Shown here one piece after another: positions 2,258 to 19,373 of a stretch of DNA of 33,024 bases. The stretch's first letter is position 1, and every line of letters begins with the position of its first letter. The notes under the pieces are model-generated. The model worked only from the letters and a program-made list of their open reading frames with translations. It was not told where the DNA came from and did not search any database. The stretch is taken from the NCBI GenBank assembly GCA_028867335.1, contig JAGWGN010000013.1, forward strand, positions 1-33,024, written 5' to 3'. The translations under genes were made by a program, and so were the position numbers. The stretch comes from Microcaldota archaeon (GTDB taxonomy: Archaea > Micrarchaeota > Micrarchaeia > Micrarchaeales > CABMGC01).

Positions 2258-3106
2258 ATGTCAATACTAGGCGAAATTGGTGTCCTGTTTGCAAGGCAGT
2301 GGATAGCGGGCACAAACGCCTCCGATGCGCTGCGCGTTGCAAAGGAGATAAACTTTGGCGGAAAGGGGGTCATACTCAACTATCTAGGGGAAAACTTCAC
2401 GGACAAGGGACAAATTGAGAAGAGCGTCAAGATTTACCTTGAACTTCTTGGGCAGATAAAAAAACAGAAGATAGGGGCAAGTGTGTCGGTTAAGCCCTCT
2501 CAGCTCGGCATAATGGTCGGGGACGATGAGTTCTACCGCAACTATCTGAAGATAGTGGCATATGCAAAGAAGCTCGGGCTGATTGTTTGGGTCGATGCCG
2601 AGGAGTACGAGTACATTGAAAGGACACAAAAGATTGCCCTTCTGGTCCTTAAGAGATACAAGAATACAGGAGTCGCAATACAGACAAGGCTGAGAAGAAG
2701 CATGGGGGACGCAGAGGGGATTGCAAAGGCAGGTGGAATGATAAGGCTGGTGAAGGGTGCCTATGCAGAACCTGCGGAAAAGGCATATGTGAGACCGGAT
2801 GAGATAACAGGCAACTACGAAAAGATAATGGAGAGGCTCTTTGCGATTGGGGCAAGGCTTATGGTAGCGACCCACGATGACTATTTAATATATAAAGCAG
2901 TTTCGCTCGAAAAGAAGTATAGGAGAAGGGTAATGTTTGGCATGCTCAAGGGGATACGCGGAAGGCTCGCGGACAGACTCTCTAATAGCGGTGAGGAGGT
3001 GCAGATATATCTTCCGTTCGGGGAGGAGTGGTTTGCCTACTCGCTGCGCAGGCTTAAAGAGGAGGGGCATGCAATGTTACTTGTGAGGTCCATATTCCAG
3101 CAATAG
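2258..3106 (+). CDS. Proline dehydrogenase-like flavoprotein (PRODH/PutA domain)
   Basis: A 282-residue single-domain protein with the PRODH barrel signature: SVKPSQLG (77-84), a DAEEYEY acidic strand (113-119), QTRLRRS (142-148), RLVKGAY (163-169), ATHDDY (204-209), FGMLKGIR and YLPFGEEWFAYSLRRL (251-266). Known members oxidise L-proline to 1-pyrroline-5-carboxylate with FAD and pass electrons to quinone or another acceptor. Length fits monofunctional PRODH. No P5C dehydrogenase is in the window. It lies 8 nt upstream of prolyl-tRNA synthetase, so both genes of this tight pair handle proline. It could act on another imino acid; the fold assignment is firm and the substrate is not. Confidence 0.85.
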   Translation: MSILGEIGVLFARQWIAGTNASDALRVAKEINFGGKGVILNYLGENFTDKGQIEKSVKIYLELLGQIKKQKIGASVSVKPSQLGIMVGDDEFYRNYLKIVAYAKKLGLIVWVDAEEYEYIERTQKIALLVLKRYKNTGVAIQTRLRRSMGDAEGIAKAGGMIRLVKGAYAEPAEKAYVRPDEITGNYEKIMERLFAIGARLMVATHDDYLIYKAVSLEKKYRRRVMFGMLKGIRGRLADRLSNSGEEVQIYLPFGEEWFAYSLRRLKEEGHAMLLVRSIFQQ

Positions 3107-3114
3107 GTGCTTAA

Positions 3115-4566
3115 TTGGCTAAGGAGAAAATCGATGAAAAGGGGATAACGGCCAGGAAGGCCGAGAACTTCTCAGAGTGGTACGTCCAGGCGATCATCCG
3201 CTCCGAGTTCCTCGACTACAGCGACGTCTCCGGATGCTACATATTCCGCCCAGCAGCCTATGCCGCGTGGCAGAAGATATACGATGCTGTTGACCCTGAG
3301 CTTAGAAAGCTAGGGGTCGAGAATGTGTATTTCCCGGTGCTCATACCGGAGAAGTTCCTCAGCGTGGAGAAGGACCACATCGAGGGCTTTGCGGCAGAGG
3401 TCGCCTGGGTAACCCATGCCGGCGACACGAAGCTGGGGGAGAGGCTTGCGGTGCGTCCAACCTCGGAGGCTATGATGTACCCGACGTTTGCGAAGTGGAT
3501 CAGGTCCTGGAGGGATCTGCCGATGCGATACAACCAGTGGAACAGCGTGCTTAGATGGGAGTTCAAGGACCCGACGCCATTCCTTAGGACCCGAGAGTTC
3601 CTCTGGAACGAGGGACACAGCGTGTTTGCAACCGAGGGGGAGGCAAGGGGAGAGAGGGACCAGATACTCAATCTTTATGTTCGGATACTAAAGGAGTACC
3701 TTGCGCTTCCAGGGATAGTCGGTAGGAAGACGGAGAAGGAGAAGTTTGCAGGGGCGGTTGAGAGCTACTCGATAGAGCATGTCATGCCTGATGGGTACGG
3801 GGTCCAGGGACCGGCGTTCCACTTCGACGGCCAGAAGTTCGCCAGGTCATTTGAGATAAAGTTCCTTGACGCGGAGGGCAAGAGCTCATACGCATGGCAG
3901 AACACCTATGCGATAAGCACAAGGGAGCTTGGTGTGATGGTAGCGACCCACGGGGATGACAAGGGGCTTGTTATACCCCCAAAGCTCGCGCACATACAGG
4001 TGGTGGTAGTCCCGATCTACAAGAACGAGAACAAGGAGACGGTGATGGAGTTCGCAGGCAAGGCGGTCAAGCTCCTAGGGGAGGAAGTCAGGGTCAGGCT
4101 TGACGACAGGGAGGGATACTCGCCGGGATTCAAGTTCAATGAGTGGGAGATGAAAGGGGTGCCAATCAGAATCGAGATTGGGCCGAAGGACGTGGAGAAA
4201 AGGCAGGTTGTGCTCGTCAGAAGGGACACGGGCGCAAAGAGCGAGACGGACCTGGGAAACCTATCAGAGAAGGTAAATTTGCTTCTCAATGAGATACACA
4301 AGGCGCTCTACCTGAAGGCGGAGAAGTTCCTTCACGACAATGTGCACACAGCAAAGGACTACGACTCGCTAAAGAAGATCCTCAAGGAAAAGGGAGGGCT
4401 GGTCAGTGCGCCTTGGTGCGAGGACCAAGAGTGCGAGGAGAAGATAAAGGCGGAGACTGGGGCTAAGATCACCAACATGCCGCTGGGGCAGGGGAAGGTG
4501 GACGCGAAATGCGTCTACTGCAAGAAGAAGGCGAAGACAATGGCGAATTTCGCCAAGTCATACTGA
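3115..4566 (+). CDS. proS: Prolyl-tRNA synthetase, archaeal/eukaryotic type
   Basis: A 483-residue class II aminoacyl-tRNA synthetase that charges tRNA-Pro. The N-terminus (FSEWYVQAIIRSEFLDYSDV) and motif 2 (RWEFKDPTPFLRTREFLWNEGHS, about residues 143-165) are ProRS hallmarks. The anticodon-binding domain (about 290-390) is followed by a C-terminal metal-binding module with Cys in CEDQEC and CVYC, ending in Tyr as is typical of the archaeal form. The start is a TTG at 3115, 8 nt after the previous stop; I see no in-frame ATG or GTG near it. A T6 run after the stop (4565-4572) may terminate the operon. Confidence 0.96.
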   Translation: MAKEKIDEKGITARKAENFSEWYVQAIIRSEFLDYSDVSGCYIFRPAAYAAWQKIYDAVDPELRKLGVENVYFPVLIPEKFLSVEKDHIEGFAAEVAWVTHAGDTKLGERLAVRPTSEAMMYPTFAKWIRSWRDLPMRYNQWNSVLRWEFKDPTPFLRTREFLWNEGHSVFATEGEARGERDQILNLYVRILKEYLALPGIVGRKTEKEKFAGAVESYSIEHVMPDGYGVQGPAFHFDGQKFARSFEIKFLDAEGKSSYAWQNTYAISTRELGVMVATHGDDKGLVIPPKLAHIQVVVVPIYKNENKETVMEFAGKAVKLLGEEVRVRLDDREGYSPGFKFNEWEMKGVPIRIEIGPKDVEKRQVVLVRRDTGAKSETDLGNLSEKVNLLLNEIHKALYLKAEKFLHDNVHTAKDYDSLKKILKEKGGLVSAPWCEDQECEEKIKAETGAKITNMPLGQGKVDAKCVYCKKKAKTMANFAKSY

Positions 4567-6352: not shown

Positions 6353-6628
6353 CTACGCCAAAAACATGACACACAGCAGCACCAGACAGTTTAGAACCTG
6401 CAGGTAAGATGCCCTGAGATGGGTCTCGGAGCTTGCATCTCTCCTTTGGCCACCGACAAGGACTGCAAGTATTGGAAATGCGATCAGCAGATACGAGAAA
6501 GGGATCGTAACATCCAAGATTGCAGCGCAGACGAGCATCGAAAGGGCAATGTTTGCCCCTAAAAGCAGGTATGACGCGTAGTGGTATCTTGCGGAAATTC
6601 TCTTGTATATGTTTCTCAGCGCGATCAT
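6353..6628 (-). CDS. Small membrane protein, last gene of T4SS-like operon
   Basis: A 91-residue protein starting MIALRNIYKRISARYHYASY. It has two adjacent hydrophobic helices (about 20-40 and 43-60), a short polar connector with GGQRRDASSETH, and a third helix at the C-terminus (about 73-91). No family recognised. Its ATG overlaps the preceding stop (ATGA) and is preceded by GGTGG. It ends the eight-gene operon, so it is probably co-translated with the secretion-like genes. Longer in-frame upstream sequence is ignored because the overlap and SD decide the start. Confidence 0.65.
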   Translation of the reverse strand: MIALRNIYKRISARYHYASYLLLGANIALSMLVCAAILDVTIPFSYLLIAFPILAVLVGGQRRDASSETHLRASYLQVLNCLVLLCVMFLA

Positions 6629-6822
6629 GTGACCACCAGGTGCAGTATCAGAGCAAATATGAAGATGGAGAGGAATGAGGCAGTGGACTTTTGGAGAAGC
6701 GGCTCCCTCTCCCTGGATTTGAGTAGCATTGTTCGCGCAGTTGAGAGATTTAACAGGATGCAAAAGGCTATTCCGCTTAACTTTGCCGCGAAATCAAAAA
6801 ACTCAGTAAGTATCACGATCAT
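6625..6822 (-). CDS. Small two-TM protein in T4SS-like operon
   Basis: A 65-residue protein with two hydrophobic helices (about 1-25 and 45-65) joined by a basic polar loop around ARTMLLKSREREPLLQKS. This resembles, in shape only, small two-helix components of type IV secretion systems such as VirB3. It overlaps the gene before (TGATG) and after (ATGA), so it is translationally coupled at both ends. A GTGGT motif lies upstream of the ATG. No family recognised. Confidence 0.6.
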   Translation of the reverse strand: MIVILTEFFDFAAKLSGIAFCILLNLSTARTMLLKSREREPLLQKSTASFLSIFIFALILHLVVT

Positions 6823-7274
6823 CAGACCACGATCTCCTCCAATTTTGAATCGAGCAGGTACGCGAGAAGAAGTCCTGAGAGGCTTGACTTCTCTGTTAGC
6901 AGATTTGTCAGATGCGCGGGGTTTGAAGAGAGCAAGCTTATCCGGTCCGGCCTGTCCCGGCATTTGAGCAGGTAAGAGCCCGCTAGCGGAGTCTCCACTA
7001 GGCCAAGGGAGTGAAAGGCACGTGAGCGCAGATTGTCAGAGTCGCCTCTGCCGGCGCGAATTCCGTTTATGATTAGCTGGTCGCTTAAGTAATTACCTGC
7101 CCTCGCCCCTTTTTCCGCATCCTTGGCAATTTGGGATTTGGCGGTCGGAGCTATGTTGTGCTGGATCACAAAATGCCTAGAGTAGGGATTGAATTTCATT
7201 AGCAATACGAAAAGCGCAAGGCCCAGCATGAGAGGGAGCTGCTCCAAAAGAATATCTTGGCCGTAGGAGCTCAT
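6822..7274 (-). CDS. Unknown membrane-anchored protein in T4SS-like operon
   Basis: A 150-residue protein with one N-terminal TM helix (about 10-27, LPLMLGLALFVLLM) and a soluble mixed-charge domain (about 40-150), probably cytoplasmic given the basic residues after the helix. No known motif was found. The ATG at 7274 overlaps the previous stop (ATGA) and is preceded by GGTGAT at a good SD distance. Function unknown; tight coupling with the VirB4-like gene cluster suggests it is part of the same machine. Confidence 0.65.
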   Translation of the reverse strand: MSSYGQDILLEQLPLMLGLALFVLLMKFNPYSRHFVIQHNIAPTAKSQIAKDAEKGARAGNYLSDQLIINGIRAGRGDSDNLRSRAFHSLGLVETPLAGSYLLKCRDRPDRISLLSSNPAHLTNLLTEKSSLSGLLLAYLLDSKLEEIVV

Positions 7275-7951
7275 TCTATCACCAATCTGAGCCTCTGCAG
7301 ATCTTGCTGGATTATCCGGTAGCCCAGGCTTGGGGCCAAGGCGAGAGCGCGGTTGATGCTGACCTCATCAGCATCATACCTCTTTGAGATTGATTGCTTG
7401 CTAAATGGGCCCTTTGCAGATTCGGATAGGATCAGATGGAAAAGCAGCCTTGCACCATGCTGATCGAGAAGCTCATTTCGCCTCTTTTGCTCGTCTAAGA
7501 GGGTCGTTAGGCCCACTATCCTCTTTGCGAGGATCAAGTCAGATCCAAGCCGGCCCTGCGCCTTCGGAGTCTGAAATTCCGTCTGCCTTTCTCGAAGGGC
7601 CGCGATTAGGTATGGGAAGATGCTCTCGATACACACCGCATAAAAATCGCCCAGATAGGCGATGACACTCAGCATCCTAAGAAGCGCATCCCGCAGATGG
7701 TAGAGTGGGGAATCCGCCGAGTACACCTCCCCGATGATGTGGCTTCTGCCGAATGTGAAGAGGTAGAAGTTGGCGCCGCAGTCAATTGCGTATTTCAGCT
7801 CGGTTCCCTTTGAGTACAGATGCAGATTTGGGTAGCCGGCCAGCGTCTCGGCGAGTTCCGCAATGCTGCCTCTAAGTTCGGCGCGAAGGGGGATCTTCAT
7901 CGAGATGCACTCCCTGCCTCCACCTATCTGCCTTGTTTTGCCGATCCTCAT
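7271..7951 (-). CDS. Unknown soluble protein in T4SS-like operon
   Basis: A 226-residue protein with no TM helix. The N-terminal half is mixed alpha/beta; the middle is helical; the last part (KQSISKRYDADEVSINRALA, then LGYRI) looks like a winged-helix or helix-turn-helix pattern, by eye only. It starts 9 nt after the VirB4-like stop and overlaps the next gene (ATGA). An internal ATG (codon 18, base 7900) is an alternative start. It could be a cytoplasmic partner of the ATPase or a DNA-binding adaptor; neither is shown. Confidence 0.7.
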   Translation of the reverse strand: MRIGKTRQIGGGRECISMKIPLRAELRGSIAELAETLAGYPNLHLYSKGTELKYAIDCGANFYLFTFGRSHIIGEVYSADSPLYHLRDALLRMLSVIAYLGDFYAVCIESIFPYLIAALRERQTEFQTPKAQGRLGSDLILAKRIVGLTTLLDEQKRRNELLDQHGARLLFHLILSESAKGPFSKQSISKRYDADEVSINRALALAPSLGYRIIQQDLQRLRLVIE

Positions 7952-7960
7952 ACAATCAAC

Positions 7961-9055
7961 TCACGAAACTGCATCTGCGAAGGCATCCGCGATCTCGTCT
8001 TCCCCAAAACCAATCCCCCTTAGGCCCCTTAGTATCTCGCGCCGATCTGCGCCGAGGGAGATCAGCTCCGAGATGAGCCTGCTGAGCTCCACGGAATAGT
8101 CCCCTGCGAAGAAGGATTTCACCACGCTAATCTGCGACTCGCTAAGCGAAAGCCCCTTTAAAAAACGCGTGAACCTTGCATCCTCTATCTCGATTCTCAT
8201 CTTATCACCTGATTTTAGCGAAAATGACCTTGCCAGCTGCACACCCTTAACGCGGTCTATGAAAAATGAGCCCTTTGACTGGCCCTTGTATATCTGGAGG
8301 ACAAGGCAGCTTCCTACGTCAAGGTTCTGGATCGCGTTTGCCTTCTCCGAATCAAGCTCGTAGCTTCTTGAAAGCGCGCCTATGCTCTGGCCGTCCTGTA
8401 TCCTAAATGCGAAGATTGTTGCAACGTTTGAGAGGAAGGCCTCGCTTATGTCGCCTAGCAGCTGGGAGGCAAGAATCAGGCCTATCCCGTACTTTCTTCC
8501 CTCCCTTATCAGAACGCCCAGCGTGTCGTGGTTTAGCAGCAGCTTCCACGCCTCATCTAGCACAACAAATAGGTTGTAATCGGTTCTTGGACCGCGAATG
8601 CGTGCGCCTTCAAGGACCCTCTCAAGGATGCGCTTTGCGGATAGCTGCTTTTGCTGCTCCCCTAACCTCATCAGGTTGAAGTAGCAGATCCCGCCGGTCT
8701 CCAGCGCGTCGTCAAGGGACTCAATCTCCGTTTCCTTGTAGAAGAGATGCTCCACGAATTCCCGATACTCGCCCGTGAAGTCTATCAGAAGAACCCTTGA
8801 GCTTGCAAACACCGACATGCGCACCATCATGCTCTTGATCAGGTAACTCTTGCCGCTTCCGCTCATCCCGAATACAAAGATATGAGGATTTATCAGGCAG
8901 CTTGGGTCCAAGAAGAATGGGGAGGAGTCGCTGCGCGTGTTTCCTATGTAAATGAGCGAGTTCTGGGTCAGGGAGGGAAAGGGCTCATCGGAATAGTGCA
9001 TATGCGCAAGTTTTGAGATTTCACTCGATGAGACTATGCTCGGTTTTATCACCAT
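7961..9055 (-). CDS. VirB4/TraC-like secretion ATPase
   Basis: A 364-residue RecA-fold ATPase. Walker A is GMSGSGKS (63-70), followed by the strand VLLIDFTGEY (89-97). Walker B is VVLDEAW (164-170), whose LDEAWKLL context is typical of VirB4/TraC and the HerA-like group. A downstream LILASQLLGDI supplies the conserved Gln-containing strand. In bacterial conjugation VirB4 powers pilus assembly and substrate transfer; crenarchaeal CedB is a related ATPase of DNA import. The protein is about half the usual VirB4 length, lacking the N-terminal domain, which may be supplied by the upstream gene. The ATG overlaps the upstream stop (TGATG) with GGTGA 4 nt before. Confidence 0.9.
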   Translation of the reverse strand: MVIKPSIVSSSEISKLAHMHYSDEPFPSLTQNSLIYIGNTRSDSSPFFLDPSCLINPHIFVFGMSGSGKSYLIKSMMVRMSVFASSRVLLIDFTGEYREFVEHLFYKETEIESLDDALETGGICYFNLMRLGEQQKQLSAKRILERVLEGARIRGPRTDYNLFVVLDEAWKLLLNHDTLGVLIREGRKYGIGLILASQLLGDISEAFLSNVATIFAFRIQDGQSIGALSRSYELDSEKANAIQNLDVGSCLVLQIYKGQSKGSFFIDRVKGVQLARSFSLKSGDKMRIEIEDARFTRFLKGLSLSESQISVVKSFFAGDYSVELSRLISELISLGADRREILRGLRGIGFGEDEIADAFADAVS

Positions 9056-9777
9056 CAGTTCACCATATTTGAGAGAAGCTCCTCGCCAGAGAGCACCCTG
9101 TGCCCAAGATTGTAGGTAGCGGAAAATAGGCCACAGAGCTGCTCAAGCTGCGAGAGCGCGGAGTTTGCGGCCGCGCTCTCGGTTGGCGCGCAGGAGCCGC
9201 TCCTGACCTTGAGCACCACCCCGGTGGGCCTTTTGCCCTTTGCTATCTCCGAAATCTCCGATTCTACTATTGCAAGCTCCCTCCTCAGCCTGCTGACCTC
9301 ATCTGACTTTGAGGGCCTTGTCCTTGAGATCTCAATCTCCTTTATACGTCTCCTTGTCTCAAGTGCGTCAAGAACGCCCTTGAGGTCGTTCTCCACGACC
9401 TGCATGCTGAATTCAAAGGGGAACCTGCACTTGGCTACTATCTCCTCGAATTTCTCTTCCGAGTTTGTGATTCTCGAACTTGGAAGCAGATGGGCGACGC
9501 ACACTCCCTTGTAGAGCGCCCCTTCATTTCGCATTGCCACCTTTGGGTTCTCGCTTAGCCTATAGCCCTGGCCCACAAGCACTATACCGTGCCTGCGGGC
9601 AAGTATCGGATTTATTATGTGGGAGGAGCGCGAGTAGACGATGGCAGCCAGCAATGAGACTGCCGAGATTGCAAGAGCAATCGGGCTTAGCAGAACAATT
9701 GAAAGCAGCAGAGTGACTGCGAAGAGCCCGTAAGTGAGATATGCAGAATTCCTTTCGATAAGGTCAATCGGGTCCAT
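9055..9777 (-). CDS. PrgI/VirB3-like membrane protein with extra domain
   Basis: A 240-residue protein with two N-terminal TM helices (about 15-34 and 36-50), then a soluble domain (about 60-240) with a charged helical segment (EISRTRPSKSDEVSRLRREL). Two TM helices followed by a cytoplasmic domain directly upstream of a VirB4-type ATPase is the arrangement of PrgI/VirB3 and of the VirB4 N-terminal domain. I infer it docks the ATPase to the membrane. The ATG at 9777 follows GTGGTA and leaves a 7-nt gap to the upstream stop; an in-frame TTG-type start further up would overlap the VirB6-like gene and is less likely. Confidence 0.7.
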   Translation of the reverse strand: MDPIDLIERNSAYLTYGLFAVTLLLSIVLLSPIALAISAVSLLAAIVYSRSSHIINPILARRHGIVLVGQGYRLSENPKVAMRNEGALYKGVCVAHLLPSSRITNSEEKFEEIVAKCRFPFEFSMQVVENDLKGVLDALETRRRIKEIEISRTRPSKSDEVSRLRRELAIVESEISEIAKGKRPTGVVLKVRSGSCAPTESAAANSALSQLEQLCGLFSATYNLGHRVLSGEELLSNMVN

Positions 9778-9784
9778 TTTACCA

Positions 9785-10831
9785 CTAAACAATCCTGAAC
9801 TTCCCAAATGATGCCTCTGAGCCCAAAAGGGTGGAGAGCTCCTTTATCGAGATGCCAGTCACGATCAGGCTGAAGGCAGGCAGTATGAAGATCTGCATTA
9901 TCAGTTTTGATATCCCAAAGAGCAGGTCGCTAAGCAGCTGGTTTAGCTGGGCTGTGATCTGGGTTACCCCATCCGCGAGGGAGGAGAAGATTCCAGAGCT
10001 TATCTGGTTGCTTGAGAGGCTGGCGGCCGAATTGAGCTGTCCGCTTATGGAGCTGGCGGAGCCGGTTATCTGTATTATGTCCGTGGAGTTGACGGAGCTG
10101 TAAGTGTTGACCATGGTTGCATTGAGCAGATAGCTCATCGGCAATACCACGTAAGTGCCAATGGCAACAGCAATCAGGAATCCTCCGATCTTCCTTGTAG
10201 CATACAGCGAGCGCAGTATCAGCCCCGCCGGAAGAATGACGGTTATCGCAGTAACGGAAACAAAGGAAAGGAGAGCCGCCTGCACAGTTATCCCAAGAGC
10301 AAGGGTTGTAACGATGTTTAGGACGTACTGTATCTCGCCTATTATCGGGGAGAGTATAGATGAGAATGAGATTGAGACTATCAGGAGGTTTAGCTTGAAG
10401 GCAGCGATCGTCCCTAAGACTGTGCCTAAGGCAAGCAGAGAGACCAGAAGTCCGGAGACTGTCACAAAAAGCGAGCTGTATTGATTTCCGGAGATGCTGT
10501 AGGGCGCAAGACCCATCAGGTAGCTGTACGAGAAGCACAGAGCAGCGTTGTCGTTCATGTATGAGGGGCAGGAAAAGGAGGAGGTGCTTCCTAAAGTTAT
10601 TGAGTTTACAACGCCTGTGATGAGCCCGTTGCTTGCAAAGAGCGCGATCATGAATCCTACCAAGGCGCCGCTGACAATCGACTGGTAGATCTCGCCTTTT
10701 CCAAACTCCTTGAGCCTCTTGTCGTCAAGCGCATATCCCAGCCCAAGGCAGATCCCGCTTATGGACAGCATTATGGCGATTATCCCGACGGCTATCCCGA
10801 ATCCGTATTGGCCGAAGGGAAGCGCATCCAT
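9785..10831 (-). CDS. VirB6/TrbL/CedA-like polytopic membrane channel
   Basis: A 348-residue membrane protein with about seven to eight hydrophobic helices. The first is near 13-33, the second near 50-70, a cluster spans 120-240, and the last is near 305-330. A long Ser/Asn/Thr-rich segment (about 245-300) with glycosylation sequons is probably outside the cell. Topology and position between a VirB2-like pilin and a PrgI/VirB4 pair match VirB6/TrbL of conjugation systems and CedA of the crenarchaeal DNA-import system. Sequence-level homology cannot be proven by eye. The start follows GGTG and abuts the stop of the pilin gene. Confidence 0.72.
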   Translation of the reverse strand: MDALPFGQYGFGIAVGIIAIMLSISGICLGLGYALDDKRLKEFGKGEIYQSIVSGALVGFMIALFASNGLITGVVNSITLGSTSSFSCPSYMNDNAALCFSYSYLMGLAPYSISGNQYSSLFVTVSGLLVSLLALGTVLGTIAAFKLNLLIVSISFSSILSPIIGEIQYVLNIVTTLALGITVQAALLSFVSVTAITVILPAGLILRSLYATRKIGGFLIAVAIGTYVVLPMSYLLNATMVNTYSSVNSTDIIQITGSASSISGQLNSAASLSSNQISSGIFSSLADGVTQITAQLNQLLSDLLFGISKLIMQIFILPAFSLIVTGISIKELSTLLGSEASFGKFRIV

Positions 10832-11215
10832 CTACACCACATTCGAGCTCATGTTCGTCAGCAGATGGGTCGAGGCAATGGCGAAGCCGCTTGATGCCAC
10901 CGAGAGGACCGCAACCATTATGGCGCCGATTATTATGTTGACCGAGGTTGTGTGGAAGTTCGCCTTCTTGTCTGGGGGCAGCATCTGTCCGACAGCGTAG
11001 AATACGCCAGCGACTATGAAAAGCACCGCGCTTAGAACAGGGCCTATCTGCGCAAGTATCTGCTGGAGCGAGTTCAGTGTGCCGACAATATCAAATGCAA
11101 AGAGGCTCTGGGCGTTTGCATTTCCAAAGGCGAGAAGCGCAAGGATAGGGATTAGCTTTAGGGGGCCCTTGCCGACAAAATCAAAAATCCGCTTTTTTGT
11201 TTTTCCTAGGTTCAT
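10832..11215 (-). CDS. VirB2/TrbC/CedA1-like pilin subunit
   Basis: A 127-residue protein: basic N-terminus, signal peptide ending near residue 35 (AFGNANA then QS), then two hydrophobic helices (about 52-75 and 88-115) separated by a short polar loop PPDKKANFHT. A cleaved signal peptide followed by a two-helix hairpin is the VirB2/TrbC conjugative pilin layout, and CedA1/TedC-type archaeal subunits are similar. It is the first gene of the operon, downstream of an AT-rich divergent promoter; GGTAATACC precedes the ATG. Confidence 0.72.
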   Translation of the reverse strand: MNLGKTKKRIFDFVGKGPLKLIPILALLAFGNANAQSLFAFDIVGTLNSLQQILAQIGPVLSAVLFIVAGVFYAVGQMLPPDKKANFHTTSVNIIIGAIMVAVLSVASSGFAIASTHLLTNMSSNVV

Positions 11216-11360
11216 GGTATTACCTTATACTTTAGTATATTTTATATATTTAGATATATATTTAAATAGTATGGTAATTTTACTGATAATCTTTTTAAAC
11301 TGCTATTCGTATGTTATCTTGGTTCTCTCGAAATTTGCGTTTCGAAGGCCGAATGATGAT
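11216..11360. promoter_or_regulatory. Divergent AT-rich promoter of T4SS-like operon and regulator
   Basis: A very AT-rich interval with TATA-like elements for both strands: TTTATATATT at 11241-11250 (read on the minus strand, 26-35 bp upstream of the pilin ATG) and ATATATTTAAAT about 11254-11267 for the plus-strand regulator. The overlap means a regulator binding here would affect both directions. Transcript starts are inferred from spacing only. Confidence 0.6.
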
Positions 11361-12542
11361 ATGCCAAGAGTCATTGAAGTTGGAAGGAGAGAGGAACTCA
11401 AGGCAAAGATGCTCAAGCTGCTAAGCACCAACGGAAGGAGGAGCATAGGCGATCTTGGGAAGAACCTGGGGATAACGAAACCCAGCGCCTACCATCTGTT
11501 TCTTGAGACGATAAAGGAGTATGACCTCCACTTCATTCCTGAGATCGACATCGAAAAGATATGGAAGTATGAGTTCATCAAGCTCGCCAGAATGAGGACA
11601 AAGAAGGAGATACTAGACGAGGCAATCGAGGAGATACCTGAGGCGGGGTTCCAGGAGTATATGGCACTTTTCAAGTTCAAGGGAAAGCAGCCAAGCGACG
11701 AGGAGATACGGAAGGCGATGGGCAACTCCTACATGCCACAGTTCGTCGCGAGGCTGGGCGGCGAATACGGGCTGATAATGTACGCGGTCGCAAGGAGATA
11801 CAACGATATAAACAGCTTCGTGGTCGAGTTCGCAAAGAAGCTCAAGGGAGACACGATGGTGGAGCTCAACAGGATAAACGCAAACCTCGGCTACTTCCCG
11901 CTCAAAAAAGAGCTGCTTGAAAAGTTCAACATATCGGAGACTTACCTTGCACTTTTGATGGGGCTCAACGAGGACGGAAGGCAGGAGTTCATCAGCATAG
12001 CAAAGAAGTACAAGAAAGAGCAGCAGGGGATGGTCTATGCGATGGACAGGCTCAAGCGAACCGAGATACTCAGGCGAGTAACCTACTTTGAGGGCAAGCA
12101 GAAGAGCACAGTCAATGCGATCATACAGATGAAGGTAACAAACTACGCCAAGTTCTTCGCAAAGAGAGAGAACTGGTTTATGGAGATGATCAAAAACAAC
12201 GAGAAGCGCCACAACGAGTACGTCTACATGTGCGACGTCTCAAACCCCCACGGAATCCTGATATTCTCAAGCTTTGCGGACAGGGCAAGGGCGAAGAAGG
12301 CCTTCAGAGAGATAACTAGGGCAAACGGTGGTGTTGAGCTAAAGTACATACCTATGAAGGAGATACTTGTAGGCCAACTCGGCATTAGGGACTTTGATAT
12401 GAGATACTCCGACCTCTACAAGCTGCTTGAAAGCAACAAGAAGGTCCCTAGATTCGTCCCTAAGGAGATAGACAACTACTATGACAGCATGAAGGCAGGG
12501 GAGAGCGAAGGGATGTCACTTGAGAATTCGGAGTACTCTTAG
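11361..12542 (+). CDS. Winged-helix transcriptional regulator, divergent from T4SS-like operon
   Basis: A 393-residue protein. Residues 10-55 (SIGDLGKNLGITKPSAYHLF) form a helix-turn-helix of Lrp/AsnC or winged type, and the following strand (YDLHFIPEIDIEKIWKYEFI) resembles the Lrp linker. The remaining about 330 residues are mixed alpha/beta, rich in Lys and Arg, with no motif I recognise; a beta-alpha-beta stretch near the C-terminus (GILIFSSFADRARAKKAFREI) could be a ferredoxin-like fold. The ATG at 11361 is chosen because the HTH begins soon after; an in-frame ATG at 11271 would add a hydrophobic leader from the promoter region and is unlikely. Placement suggests it controls itself and the secretion-like operon. 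Confidence 0.75.
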   Translation: MPRVIEVGRREELKAKMLKLLSTNGRRSIGDLGKNLGITKPSAYHLFLETIKEYDLHFIPEIDIEKIWKYEFIKLARMRTKKEILDEAIEEIPEAGFQEYMALFKFKGKQPSDEEIRKAMGNSYMPQFVARLGGEYGLIMYAVARRYNDINSFVVEFAKKLKGDTMVELNRINANLGYFPLKKELLEKFNISETYLALLMGLNEDGRQEFISIAKKYKKEQQGMVYAMDRLKRTEILRRVTYFEGKQKSTVNAIIQMKVTNYAKFFAKRENWFMEMIKNNEKRHNEYVYMCDVSNPHGILIFSSFADRARAKKAFREITRANGGVELKYIPMKEILVGQLGIRDFDMRYSDLYKLLESNKKVPRFVPKEIDNYYDSMKAGESEGMSLENSEYS

Positions 12543-15635: not shown

Positions 15636-16478
15636 CTATCTATTCTTTAAGAAATAGAAAACCAAAAATGGATGCTTGAAGTTTGTGATCTTGAAGGAAG
15701 AACCGTCCTCGCTAATGTTTGCCCATTCTTGAGACTTAAAGGCACACTTGAATAGTTTTTTGGCGTCGCCCTCCAGAAAAATTACGTCTTTAACTTGGCT
15801 TATCACATAGGCGATTTCCTCGAATGCAGCCCCATTTTTTCCTGTTTCGAGCAGATATCTCACCGCTACTGAAAGCATCCCCATCTTTTCATTGAGTAGA
15901 TGATTATGGTAATCCGCCATGGATTTGAAGCCTTTTCTGACTGCAAGGGCGTTTTGGTAATCATAGTACGACTTGAACCCTTTTTTGATTGCGTGATCGT
16001 TTAGGGAATCAGAGTAAGATTTGAAGCCTTTTTTGATTGCAAGGGCATTTTGGTAATCAGAATATGACCTGAAGCCCTTTTTGATTGCGATATCTTTTTT
16101 GTAATCGGAGTAAGATTTGAACCCTTTCTTGATTGCGATATCGTTGCGGTAATCGAAAAGTGAGGCGAACCCTTTTTTGGTTACCCGATCTTTCTCGTAT
16201 TCAAACTTTGAGCCGAAGCCCATTTTAGATAGAAGATCCATTTCGTACTCGTATTTTGAGCCGAAACCTTTTTTGATCGCCCAGTTGTTTTGGTAGTCTA
16301 GGTAGGAATCAAACCCATTTCTGATTGCGAATTTATTTCTATAATCCATATCGGAGGAAAATCCTCTTTTGAGTGCAAGCAGATCTTTCCTTGTAAGTTT
16401 TTTTGAGGAAATTTGGATTGCCTCACCGACTGTGCGCCCTTCGAATTCTTGAGGGGATTTGACTTCTACAGTTTTCAC
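15636..16478 (-). CDS. 16-residue tandem-repeat protein with C-terminal domain
   Basis: A 280-residue protein starting at GTG (16478) with AGTGAT just before it. Residues about 15-37 (TVGEAIQISSKKLTRKDLLA) form a conserved head shared with the next gene upstream. Then come about ten tandem copies of a 16-residue unit, consensus LAIKKGFKSYSDYQNA (about residues 34-195), and a unique C-terminal domain (about 200-280). The GF-x-S-x-S-D-Y core repeats at exactly 48 bp and central units are near-identical in DNA. Unit shape suggests one short helix plus a turn; the GFxSxSEY pattern recalls the helix start in ribbon-helix-helix proteins, as resemblance only. More AT-rich than its paralog. Function unknown. 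Confidence 0.8.
   Translation of the reverse strand: MKTVEVKSPQEFEGRTVGEAIQISSKKLTRKDLLALKRGFSSDMDYRNKFAIRNGFDSYLDYQNNWAIKKGFGSKYEYEMDLLSKMGFGSKFEYEKDRVTKKGFASLFDYRNDIAIKKGFKSYSDYKKDIAIKKGFRSYSDYQNALAIKKGFKSYSDSLNDHAIKKGFKSYYDYQNALAVRKGFKSMADYHNHLLNEKMGMLSVAVRYLLETGKNGAAFEEIAYVISQVKDVIFLEGDAKKLFKCAFKSQEWANISEDGSSFKITNFKHPFLVFYFLKNR
15900..16390 (-). repeat. About ten 48-bp tandem coding repeats
   Basis: In-frame 48-bp units, each with a conserved core encoding KKGFKSYSDY. Spacing between successive GF codons is constant at 48 bp. Units in about 15925-16150 are most alike in DNA, pointing to recent expansion or homogenisation. Confidence 0.85.
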
Positions 16479-16482
16479 GGGA

Positions 16483-16941
16483 TCACTTGGCGTTTTGGCG
16501 CTCTAGAGAGTTGCGGTATTCGGAGTGGTTCTTGAAGCCCTTCTTTACTGCCAGGCTATTGAGATAGGCAGTATAGTTCACAAAGCCCTTCCTGACAGAG
16601 AGGTGCTTCATGTAGTGAGAGTGACTCTTGAAGCCGTTTTGAATTGCGCGCTTGTCAAGATACTCCTTGCGGCTCTTGAAACCCCTTTTGACTGCGAGAT
16701 GATCCAGATATTCTATGGGGCTCTTGAAGCCCCTCTTTGCCACACCGCTTCGCTGGCGATCCACGCGGCTCTCAAATCCCCTCTTCATTGCGAGGTGGTC
16801 AGAGAGTCGCGCATTTGATTCGAAGCCCCGCCTAATCGCTAGAAGATCCCGCCTTGAAAGCTTCTTTTCATTGATACCGAGCGCATCCCCCACCGTTGCT
16901 CCCTCTGAGAGGATTTGTTTTTTAATCGAGATGGTGCTCAT
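16483..16941 (-). CDS. 16-residue tandem-repeat protein, paralog
   Basis: A 152-residue protein. It shares the head of the downstream gene (TVGDALGINEKKLSRRDLLA) followed by about seven 16-residue units such as LAVKRGFKSRKEYLDK and LAVKKGFKNHSEYRNS, but ends directly after the repeats with no C-terminal domain. Units are more divergent and the gene is more GC-rich than the neighbour, implying an old duplication. The ATG at 16941 is preferred over a TTG 15 nt upstream. Only 4 nt separate its stop from the next GTG, so the pair is one operon. Possible TATA (TTTTTAAA) near 16978. Function unknown. Confidence 0.78.
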   Translation of the reverse strand: MSTISIKKQILSEGATVGDALGINEKKLSRRDLLAIRRGFESNARLSDHLAMKRGFESRVDRQRSGVAKRGFKSPIEYLDHLAVKRGFKSRKEYLDKRAIQNGFKSHSHYMKHLSVRKGFVNYTAYLNSLAVKKGFKNHSEYRNSLERQNAK

Positions 16942-17006
16942 CGAGTCAGCCTGCAAAAATAGATAAGCGAGCCCGGTTTAAAAAGTATGGCACGCTGTTT
17001 GTATAA

Positions 17007-17807: not shown

Positions 17808-17897
17808 GATAATCAATTGGCACTGAGTATTATGTAAACAAACAGATATATTAATTTGTGACAGAAGAATTATAGTTCGGGCAGCCGGTGATTTTTG

Positions 17898-19373
17898 ATG
17901 GAAGGTTCAAGGATGAATTACGAGCAGATAATGAAGGTCGCTCTTGAGCGCGGCTTCTACTTCCCAAGCTGCGAGGTGTACAGCGATGCGCAGGCAGGGT
18001 TCTGGGAGTACGGGCCTACGGGACTGAGCCTAAAGAACCGCTTCATCGAGCTTTGGAGGAGGGAGATGGTCAGAAGGGACGCGATGCTCGAGATTGACGG
18101 ATCGCAGATAATGTCTAAGTCGGTCTTTGAGGCATCGGGCCACCTTGCAAGCTTTGCTGACCCGGTCGCGCAGTGCACGAAGTGCAAGTCGATTTATAGG
18201 ATAGACAAGATGATTGCGGAGGTCGCAAACATAATAATACCCGAGAACGCGGACCTTGAGGAGTTCGACAAGATAATCGCAGAGAAGAACATACTCTGCA
18301 CAAAGTGCGGGGGAAAGCTTGGAAAGGCAAGGAAGTTCAACATGATGTTCGAGGTGGGAATAGGACCTGAGGCGGTCCCGTCCTATCTGAGGCCGGAGAC
18401 CTGCCAGTCGATTTTCGTTGACTTCCCAAGAGTTTTCAAGACGATGCGCGGAAAGCTCCCTGTCGGAATGGCGCAGATCGGAAAGAGCTTCAGGAACGAG
18501 ATCTCGCCTAGGCAGAGCCTGATAAGGATGAGGGAGTTCTACCAGGCTGAGATCGAGGTCTTCCTGAACCCAAGCACGGTCAATGAGATTGAGGGATTCG
18601 CTGAAATCGAGGACACGGAGCTGAACTTGATGGTTGATGAAAAGACAATCCAGACGATGACCTGCAAGAAGGCGGTCGAATCCGGCATTGTGCCAAACAA
18701 GCTGGTCGCATACTACCTTGGCCTTCTTGTGGAGTTCTACCAAAAGAGCGGAATAGACGTTAGCAAGAGCCGCTTCAGAAAGCTAGGCGCAAAGGAGAAG
18801 GCGTTCTATGCCTCTGTAGCATTCGACTTCGAGGTGGAGACGAGCATCGGATGGCTCGAGCTTGTAGCCTGCAACTACAGATCCGATTACGATCTTACGG
18901 CTCACGCGAAGATGAGCGGCGCGAACTTTGAGGTAATGGACGGGGAGGCAAAGGTGCTTCCACACGTCTTTGAGATCTCGATGGGGATCGACAGGAGTCT
19001 CTACACGATAATCGAGCACTGCATACGCGACGAGAAGGAGAACGAGCGGGTTGTTCTCTCGATAAAGCCATACCTCGCCCCGGTGCACCTTGGGATTTTG
19101 CCTCTCATGAAGAAGGACGGGCTCTATGAGCAGGCGCACCTGATATTCAACGGACTGCGGAGGAAGTACGACGTCTTCTTCGATGTATCCGGATCGATAG
19201 GAAAGCGCTACAGGAGGCTTGACGAAATCGGCGCGCCCCTTGCTGTGACGATCGATTACCAGACGCTTGAGGACGAGACGGTCACAATCAGAAAGAGGGA
19301 TGCGATGTCCCAGGAGAGGATCAAGATATCCGAGATCGCCTCTTACGTTGAGAAGGAGATTGCATATCCCTGA
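17898..19373 (+). CDS. glyS: Glycyl-tRNA synthetase, archaeal/eukaryotic type
   Basis: A 491-residue class II synthetase (alpha2 form) that charges tRNA-Gly. SGHLASFADP (80-89) is the GlyRS motif 1 signature. CTKC (C93, C96) and CTKCGG (C134, C137) form a zinc-binding insertion. RPETCQSIFVDFPRV and FRNEISPRQSLIRMREFYQAE (motif 2) follow; motif 3 is near ISMGIDRSLYTIIEH; an anticodon-binding domain (about 375-490) closes the protein. GGTGAT (17887-17892) precedes the ATG at 17898. Its stop overlaps the start of the Ogg1 gene (TGATG), so the two are coupled. Confidence 0.96.
   Translation: MEGSRMNYEQIMKVALERGFYFPSCEVYSDAQAGFWEYGPTGLSLKNRFIELWRREMVRRDAMLEIDGSQIMSKSVFEASGHLASFADPVAQCTKCKSIYRIDKMIAEVANIIIPENADLEEFDKIIAEKNILCTKCGGKLGKARKFNMMFEVGIGPEAVPSYLRPETCQSIFVDFPRVFKTMRGKLPVGMAQIGKSFRNEISPRQSLIRMREFYQAEIEVFLNPSTVNEIEGFAEIEDTELNLMVDEKTIQTMTCKKAVESGIVPNKLVAYYLGLLVEFYQKSGIDVSKSRFRKLGAKEKAFYASVAFDFEVETSIGWLELVACNYRSDYDLTAHAKMSGANFEVMDGEAKVLPHVFEISMGIDRSLYTIIEHCIRDEKENERVVLSIKPYLAPVHLGILPLMKKDGLYEQAHLIFNGLRRKYDVFFDVSGSIGKRYRRLDEIGAPLAVTIDYQTLEDETVTIRKRDAMSQERIKISEIASYVEKEIAYP

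Follow-up and report, generated by a model that had tools for sequence, protein, structure and literature searches.

The DNA analysed here, referred to as the window, comprised 33,024 bases of contig C4 of a Micrarchaeota metagenome-assembled genome (MAG; 960,597 bases, 0.96 Mb, 82.7 % complete). Between positions 11215 and 6353 it carries eight minus-strand ORFs, named T1–T8 in the order of their transcription (Table 1), which very probably encode an apparatus of the type IV secretion system (T4SS) type. All eight ORFs reported in a preliminary description of the window were present, and their coupling was evident from stop/start overlaps (TGATG or ATGA) at four junctions, T3/T4, T5/T6, T6/T7 and T7/T8. 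The true starts of T7 and T8 lie later than the longest ORFs imply (at 6822 and 6628); with this correction, proteins of similar size and topology were found at the same places in most of the relatives examined. T3 may start at the ATG at 9777 instead of the TTG at 9807.

Table 1. Genes and features of the operon region (positions in the window; aa, amino acids; TM, transmembrane; HTH, helix-turn-helix)
Feature	Position	Strand	Evidence
T1, pilin, 127 aa	10832..11215	-	Pfam, PDB profile, topology
T2, polytopic membrane protein, 348 aa, ~8 predicted TM helices	9785..10831	-	TM prediction, conserved across the order
T3, membrane hairpin with VirB4 N-terminal-domain-like fold	9055..9807	-	AlphaFold2, Foldseek
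T4, VirB4/CedB-type ATPase domain alone, 364 aa	7961..9055	-	Profiles, motifs, tree
T5, soluble accessory protein, 226 aa	7271..7951	-	Profile conservation
T6, 150 aa, one N-terminal TM helix	6822..7274	-	ORF, TM prediction, relatives
T7, 65 aa, two TM helices	6625..6822	-	TGATG overlap with T6; counterparts
T8, 91 aa, three TM helices	6353..6628	-	ATGA overlap with T7; counterparts
Divergent intergenic region, AT-rich TATA-like stretch upstream of T1	11216..11360		Sequence
Divergent 393-aa protein, weak AsnC-type HTH, candidate regulator	11361..12542	+	Weak family match

Conservation of the operon and its components

The operon was compared across 34 genome loci from two families and ~30 genera. 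The synteny anticipated in the preliminary description was borne out, T1, T2, T3 and T4 being contiguous and in the same order and strand in all 34 loci. When GTDB species genomes were scanned using the pilin alignment, 99 relatives were returned; the best 80 of these were nearly all titled Candidatus Micrarchaeota, with a few Micrarchaeaceae, Mancarchaeum or Marsarchaeota, and among these listed matches the earlier assignment to a DPANN host held. The titles suggest Micrarchaeales as the order.

T1 possesses a signal peptide that ends in NANA, followed by QS, and two hydrophobic helices (residues 57–75 and 95–113) with the basic loop PPDKKANFHTT between them. Its match to PF18895 (T4SS_pilin) was below the gathering score (7.5e-5); within the family, 24 of the 34 members matched PF18895 (best 4.1e-7) and 16 matched TrbC/VirB2. 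The best PDB profile match, R388 TrwL/VirB2, was weak by itself (E 0.22) and aligned in register. The PDB scan gave no direct match to the CedA1 or TedC chains, and a comparison did not link T1 to the N-terminal end of T2 in the way reported for CedA1 and CedA. The pilins of a second system in the same genome (see below) and of outgroup operons matched pilin families independently, one of them exactly at the Pfam TrbC cut-off. Judged from these family matches, T1 is a VirB2/T4SS_pilin-like, CedA1-type pilin, as had been proposed.

The Walker A (GMSGSGKS) and Walker B (VVLDEAW) motifs previously noted in T4 were confirmed, together with a conserved REGRKYG motif; the Walker and REGRKYG residues were invariant, and the helical insert between the two Walker motifs was for the most part lacking. 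Membership of the Ced group was judged by NCBIfam models. The CedB profile matched all 34 members of the T4 family (best 1.3e-23, well short of the equivalog cut-off) and the CedD profile matched 32, whilst hhalign scored T4 against bacterial VirB4 at 98.2 %. The best PDB profile scores came from HerA helicases (3.5e-23, versus 2.3e-12 for VirB4). In a phylogenetic tree of the ATPases, whose deep branches were poorly resolved, T4 and the ATPases of the second system formed neighbouring clades, and the genome's own HerA-like ATPase (contig C11) paired weakly with the NurA-adjacent HerA of M. jannaschii, apart from T4.

The AlphaFold2 model of T3 (pLDDT 88.6) comprised membrane helices at residues 13–39 and 42–60 and a soluble domain of ~175 residues. 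The top 11 Foldseek matches were all R388 TrwK/VirB4 or chains of the R388 T4SS complex (best E 9.6e-4, probability 0.97–1.00). Because Walker motifs are missing from T3, the similarity can only lie outside the ATPase part of VirB4. Sequence searches with T3 gave no match and hhalign against PrgI and VirB4 alignments failed, the link being made by the fold alone. The earlier view of T3 as a two-helix PrgI/VirB3-like protein stood in part: its membrane hairpin occupies the VirB3/PrgI place, PrgI or VirB3 identity found no support in sequence, and structure prediction added the VirB4 N-terminal-domain fold in the extra soluble domain. Since T3 has this predicted fold and T4 is an ATPase domain on its own, the two are taken as a single VirB4 that is divided between the N-terminal and ATPase domains and spread over two genes. 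The pilin, the ATPase and the VirB4 N-terminal-domain fold thus provide three supported components in addition to the synteny.

T2 had been described as a VirB6/CedA-like channel. A PDB profile search with T2, a Foldseek search with an AlphaFold model of middling confidence and a Pfam scan of 36 T2-like proteins gave no match, and hhalign with ten VirB6 proteins of the CD1112 type failed, the scores being equal to those of reversed-alignment controls. Every profile and fold test being negative, identification of T2 as VirB6 through homology was dropped. T2 is conserved across the order, its position is that of VirB6/TrbL CD1112 in monoderm conjugation modules, and its paralogues adjoin another pilin and VirB4-type ATPase in the second locus. 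On position, topology and paralogy only, T2 is probably a VirB6/CedA-type channel.

Of the remaining four proteins, T5 was detected by profile in 29 of the 34 loci and has a weak paralogue in the second system (3e-7); no family or PDB identity was found for it, its PDB matches being at chance level only. Most of the loci examined also encode counterparts of T6, T7 and T8 that are comparable in size and number of TM helices. Those of T6 are ~150–250 aa in length, those of T7 are of similar size and mostly possess two TM helices, and those of T8 are ~60–111 aa with one to three TM helices.

In 19 of the 34 loci the operon ends with a further ATPase gene, T9 (~740 aa), which in the present genome (G000) lies on another contig (G000:C2:3562-5763, E 2e-206). 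The commonest NCBIfam match of T9 was CedD (18 of 35 members, at best 1.7e-10 and well short of the equivalog cut-off), and its ATPase region aligned with T4 (98.4 %); a comparison of its N-terminal part with T3 failed. Presence was called from searches of 301 genomes, using thresholds of E <1e-50 for T2 of the operon type and E <1e-20 for T9. Among the 164 genomes of the order, T2 was found in 111; both genes were present in 96, T2 only in 15, T9 only in 10 and neither in 43 (Fisher p 2e-17, shared descent ignored). The corresponding numbers for the 51 genomes that were at least 90 % complete were 37, 2, 1 and 11. In-frame stops were observed in T9 of six genomes (G002, G047, G051, G058, G059 and G224) and in T2 of two (G022 and G048), which suggest repeated decay of the operon in some lineages, or assembly errors.

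A second locus and comparison with known systems

The same genome has a second T4SS-type locus, on contig C22 (G000:C22, ~51.4–67.2 kb; L064 and L187). It encodes a 137-aa pilin, a T5-like protein, two proteins resembling T3 and six resembling T2, of which one has a PKD domain. The ATPase of the locus is of the VirB4 type and 502 aa long, and its tail seems to be encoded by a separate 99-aa gene. The match of this gene (L064:10601-10900) covers one part of the T4 profile, presumably the C-terminal tail, which is fused in T4 of the window. ATPases of the C22 type were found in 250 of the 301 genomes of the phylum sample, and in 89 of 96 near-complete genomes. Compact pilin-T2-T3-T4 operons with a full-size ATPase occur sporadically in three other families (G147, G094, G085 and G135). 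Large proteins with PKD repeats or nosD-like repeats stand beside the pilins of the second system (L187:7372-9534 and 9586-10545) and of an outgroup operon (L197:17-5104), and are possible surface adhesins. The set of genes had been called minimal, a label that no longer fits in view of the CedD-like second ATPase and this class-wide paralogous locus.

The genes were compared with four known systems. Import of chromosomal DNA by Ced requires CedA, CedA1, CedB and CedD, and it has been argued that CedB and CedD together are the equivalent of VirB4 (PMC11868833). Like the Ced system of the Sulfolobales (CedA, CedA1, CedA2, CedB, CedD and CedE), the Micrarchaeota system is chromosomal, has a VirB2-type pilin, a polytopic channel candidate and two FtsK/HerA-type ATPases (T4 matching CedB and T9 matching CedD), and has no reported relaxase. 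It differs in that the VirB4 N-terminal domain is carried by a separate two-helix membrane protein, T3, leaving the ATPase alone, and in that T1 possesses a signal peptide whereas CedA1 of A. pernix is unprocessed; in addition, T5–T8 have no known counterpart, NurA is missing and T2 showed no sequence similarity in the tests run. With the Ted system of the Thermoproteales (TedA, TedB and TedC) it shares a chromosomal location, a signal-peptide pilin with an A-x-A site, an adjoining polytopic gene and a VirB4-type ATPase. Ted loci, however, often include HerA, Rad50 or ParA genes (PMC9905601), none of which stands beside the operon in the window, and the split VirB4 and CedD-like second ATPase also set the operon apart from Ted.

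The order of T1–T4 is identical to that of the monoderm mating-pair-formation class MPF_FATA, namely a Maff2-type small pilin-like protein, VirB6/TrbL CD1112, PrgI and VirB4 CD1110. Unlike MPF_FATA, the operon has no VirD4 or CHAP hydrolase and its VirB4 is divided between N-terminal and ATPase domains, and hhalign gave no link between T2 and CD1112 or between T3 and PrgI. The T4SSs of Patescibacteria are likewise chromosomal, with VirB2-like pilins and for the most part no relaxase, in an ultrasmall, host-dependent lineage; they are, however, bacterial and related to MPF_FATA, whereas the Micrarchaeota ATPases best matched CedB and CedD in NCBIfam.

The preliminary description had listed relaxase, VirD4 and VirB11 as missing from the gene set. 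With positive controls working, VirD4 (PF02534) was found in none of 21 genomes of the order, nor were NurA (PF09376), ComEC or DprA; given the absence of VirD4, the operon was not classed as a conjugation system. No relaxase or VirB11 was matched among the window proteins scanned, no genome-wide search having been made for either.

The operon lies in a housekeeping context, as described earlier: a tRNA-Gln gene directly follows its end (6311-6237), and the flanks include genes for prolyl-tRNA synthetase, an HhH-GPD glycosylase, a radical SAM enzyme and a Nop-domain protein. The tRNA neighbour is not conserved between loci and the flanks are variable. No repeat of the tRNA 3' end was found within the window, no viral contig matched the operon, and no integrase, replication gene or VirD4 was recognised beside it in scans of the window proteins. 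The lack of a tRNA-end repeat or a viral match, the variable flanks and the presence across the order (111 of 164 genomes) point to a resident operon, in agreement with the earlier view that it is domesticated and not plasmid-borne.

Proposed function and alternative explanations

The operon is probably a chromosomally domesticated T4SS-type apparatus that most resembles the crenarchaeal Ced DNA-import system, a reading based on the gene content, the synteny, the pilin and ATPase families, the predicted T3 fold and the T9 co-occurrence established here. More tentatively, and by analogy, DNA import or exchange is suggested as its main function: the pilin, the channel candidate and the ATPases matching CedB and CedD parallel the requirements of Ced, and for this reason import is regarded as the likeliest role. 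DNA is put forward as the most likely cargo because no VirD4 or NurA was detected and, to our knowledge, no relaxase is known in archaea. T1 would be secreted via its signal peptide and assemble a VirB2/CedA1-type pilus, whilst T2 would form a membrane channel in the VirB6/CedA position. T3 would hold the VirB4 N-terminal domain at the membrane, where T4 may dock as a separate ATPase, and the CedD-like T9 would act as a second motor with T3 and T4; T5–T8 would be accessory or assembly factors. The DNA would presumably be taken up, if this direction and cargo are right, from neighbouring cells of the same species or of the host.

Several observations weigh against this reading. The pilin of the window by itself fell under the Pfam threshold, and no homology of T2 to VirB6 was detectable by profile, Pfam, fold or hhalign. 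For T3, homology in sequence to PrgI, VirB3 or VirB4 is lacking, and the Foldseek match was modest, with TM scores of 0.34–0.40 over the whole query. In bacteria, imported DNA is handled by ComEC and DprA, both of which were absent from the 21 genomes; Sulfolobus Ced is, as far as we know, independent of both. NurA-HerA has been proposed to make single-stranded DNA for Ced (PMC9905601), and the NurA side of this pair is missing here (0 of 21 genomes). The system was also missing from 11 of the 51 near-complete genomes and, these absences being joined by in-frame stops, it must be dispensable; many of the genomes are MAGs with gaps.

The same machine could serve another cargo, as a symbiont contact apparatus on a Thermoplasmatales host that passes proteins, lipids or metabolites, which we regard as possible though doubtful. 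Epibiotic Saccharimonadia need their T4SS for growth on the host, and most T4SS clusters of Patescibacteria are without a relaxase (PMC12102498); giant VirB4/TraG-domain proteins of nanohaloarchaea have been proposed to secrete effectors into hosts (PMC10266531). A contact role would also fit the lack of any DNA-processing gene linked to the operon and the presence of PKD-repeat protein genes near the second, class-wide system. Against it, CedB and CedD, whose families are the closest to the ATPases, are DNA-import proteins and no secreted effector was recognised in the conserved operon, whilst an obligate role in host contact is at odds with the near-complete genomes that lack the operon (not counted against the second locus). 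It is conceivable, if speculative, that Micrarchaeota possess two paralogous machines. One, ancestral and class-wide, would comprise a pilin, several VirB6-like channels (six in this genome) and two VirB4-N-domain proteins, and would probably be central to contact with the host; the other would be the derived, Ced-like operon, in which VirB4 is split and which would serve DNA exchange. If so, machinery of the T4SS type would belong to the chromosomal core of a DPANN class, and a membrane-anchored VirB4 N-terminal domain with a free motor would be a working, possibly old, arrangement.

Two further explanations concern the origin of the genes. The abutting tRNA-Gln gene, the relocation of T9 in this genome and the sporadic compact relatives in three other families would be in keeping with a decayed integrated conjugative element, in which the mating-pair-formation genes of a plasmid or such an element would have been left stranded by a tRNA gene. 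This is improbable, given that the window contains no tRNA 3'-end repeat, that neither an integrase, a replication gene nor VirD4 was recognised beside the operon, that the tRNA neighbour is not conserved and no viral contig matched, and that presence in 111 of 164 genomes fits long residence. A HerA-type DNA repair operon, in which T4 would be a repair helicase of the HerA family with unrelated membrane genes as neighbours, would account for HerA giving the best PDB profile scores with T4, the FtsK-HerA superfamily being shared. Against this, NurA was absent from all 21 genomes, and the genome's own HerA-like ATPase grouped, if weakly, with the NurA-adjacent HerA and not with T4; moreover, T4 always stands beside a pilin and a protein with the VirB4 N-terminal domain. 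The repair explanation, largely refuted by the T3 fold and the synteny, is very improbable.

In 2023, the authors of work on the Ced and Ted pili knew of no other domesticated conjugation apparatus for DNA transfer (PMC9905601). No report of such a Micrarchaeota system was found in the literature searched, subscription journals and preprints lying outside its coverage, and two Micrarchaeota papers make no mention of pili or secretion systems. The Ced-like operon across a DPANN order and the class-wide paralogous locus would extend machinery of this kind to ultrasmall archaea, in parallel to the T4SS of Patescibacteria, and offer concrete genes for how Micrarchaeota exchange DNA or contact hosts. 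The split VirB4, by separating membrane docking from the motor, may help to dissect the roles of VirB3 and the VirB4 N-terminal domain.

Neighbouring genes in the window

Loci L089, L095 and L103 also have members of the family of the divergent HTH protein close to the operon. In the present genome, a 366-aa paralogue (L186:7903-9003) is located at a distance of 2.1 kb from T9 on its other contig, so that both halves of the divided gene set would seem to be accompanied by the candidate regulator.

Elsewhere in the window, there are two class II aminoacyl-tRNA synthetase genes (3115-4566 and 17895-19373), one of which was read as prolyl-tRNA synthetase and the other of which encodes tRNA-synt_2b and HGTP anticodon domains. 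A proline dehydrogenase gene (2258-3106) immediately precedes the prolyl-tRNA synthetase gene, in a reduced DPANN genome. At 15636-16956, two adjacent ORFs of 280 and 157 aa resemble one another, and one of them has a weak match to a restriction-endonuclease fold.

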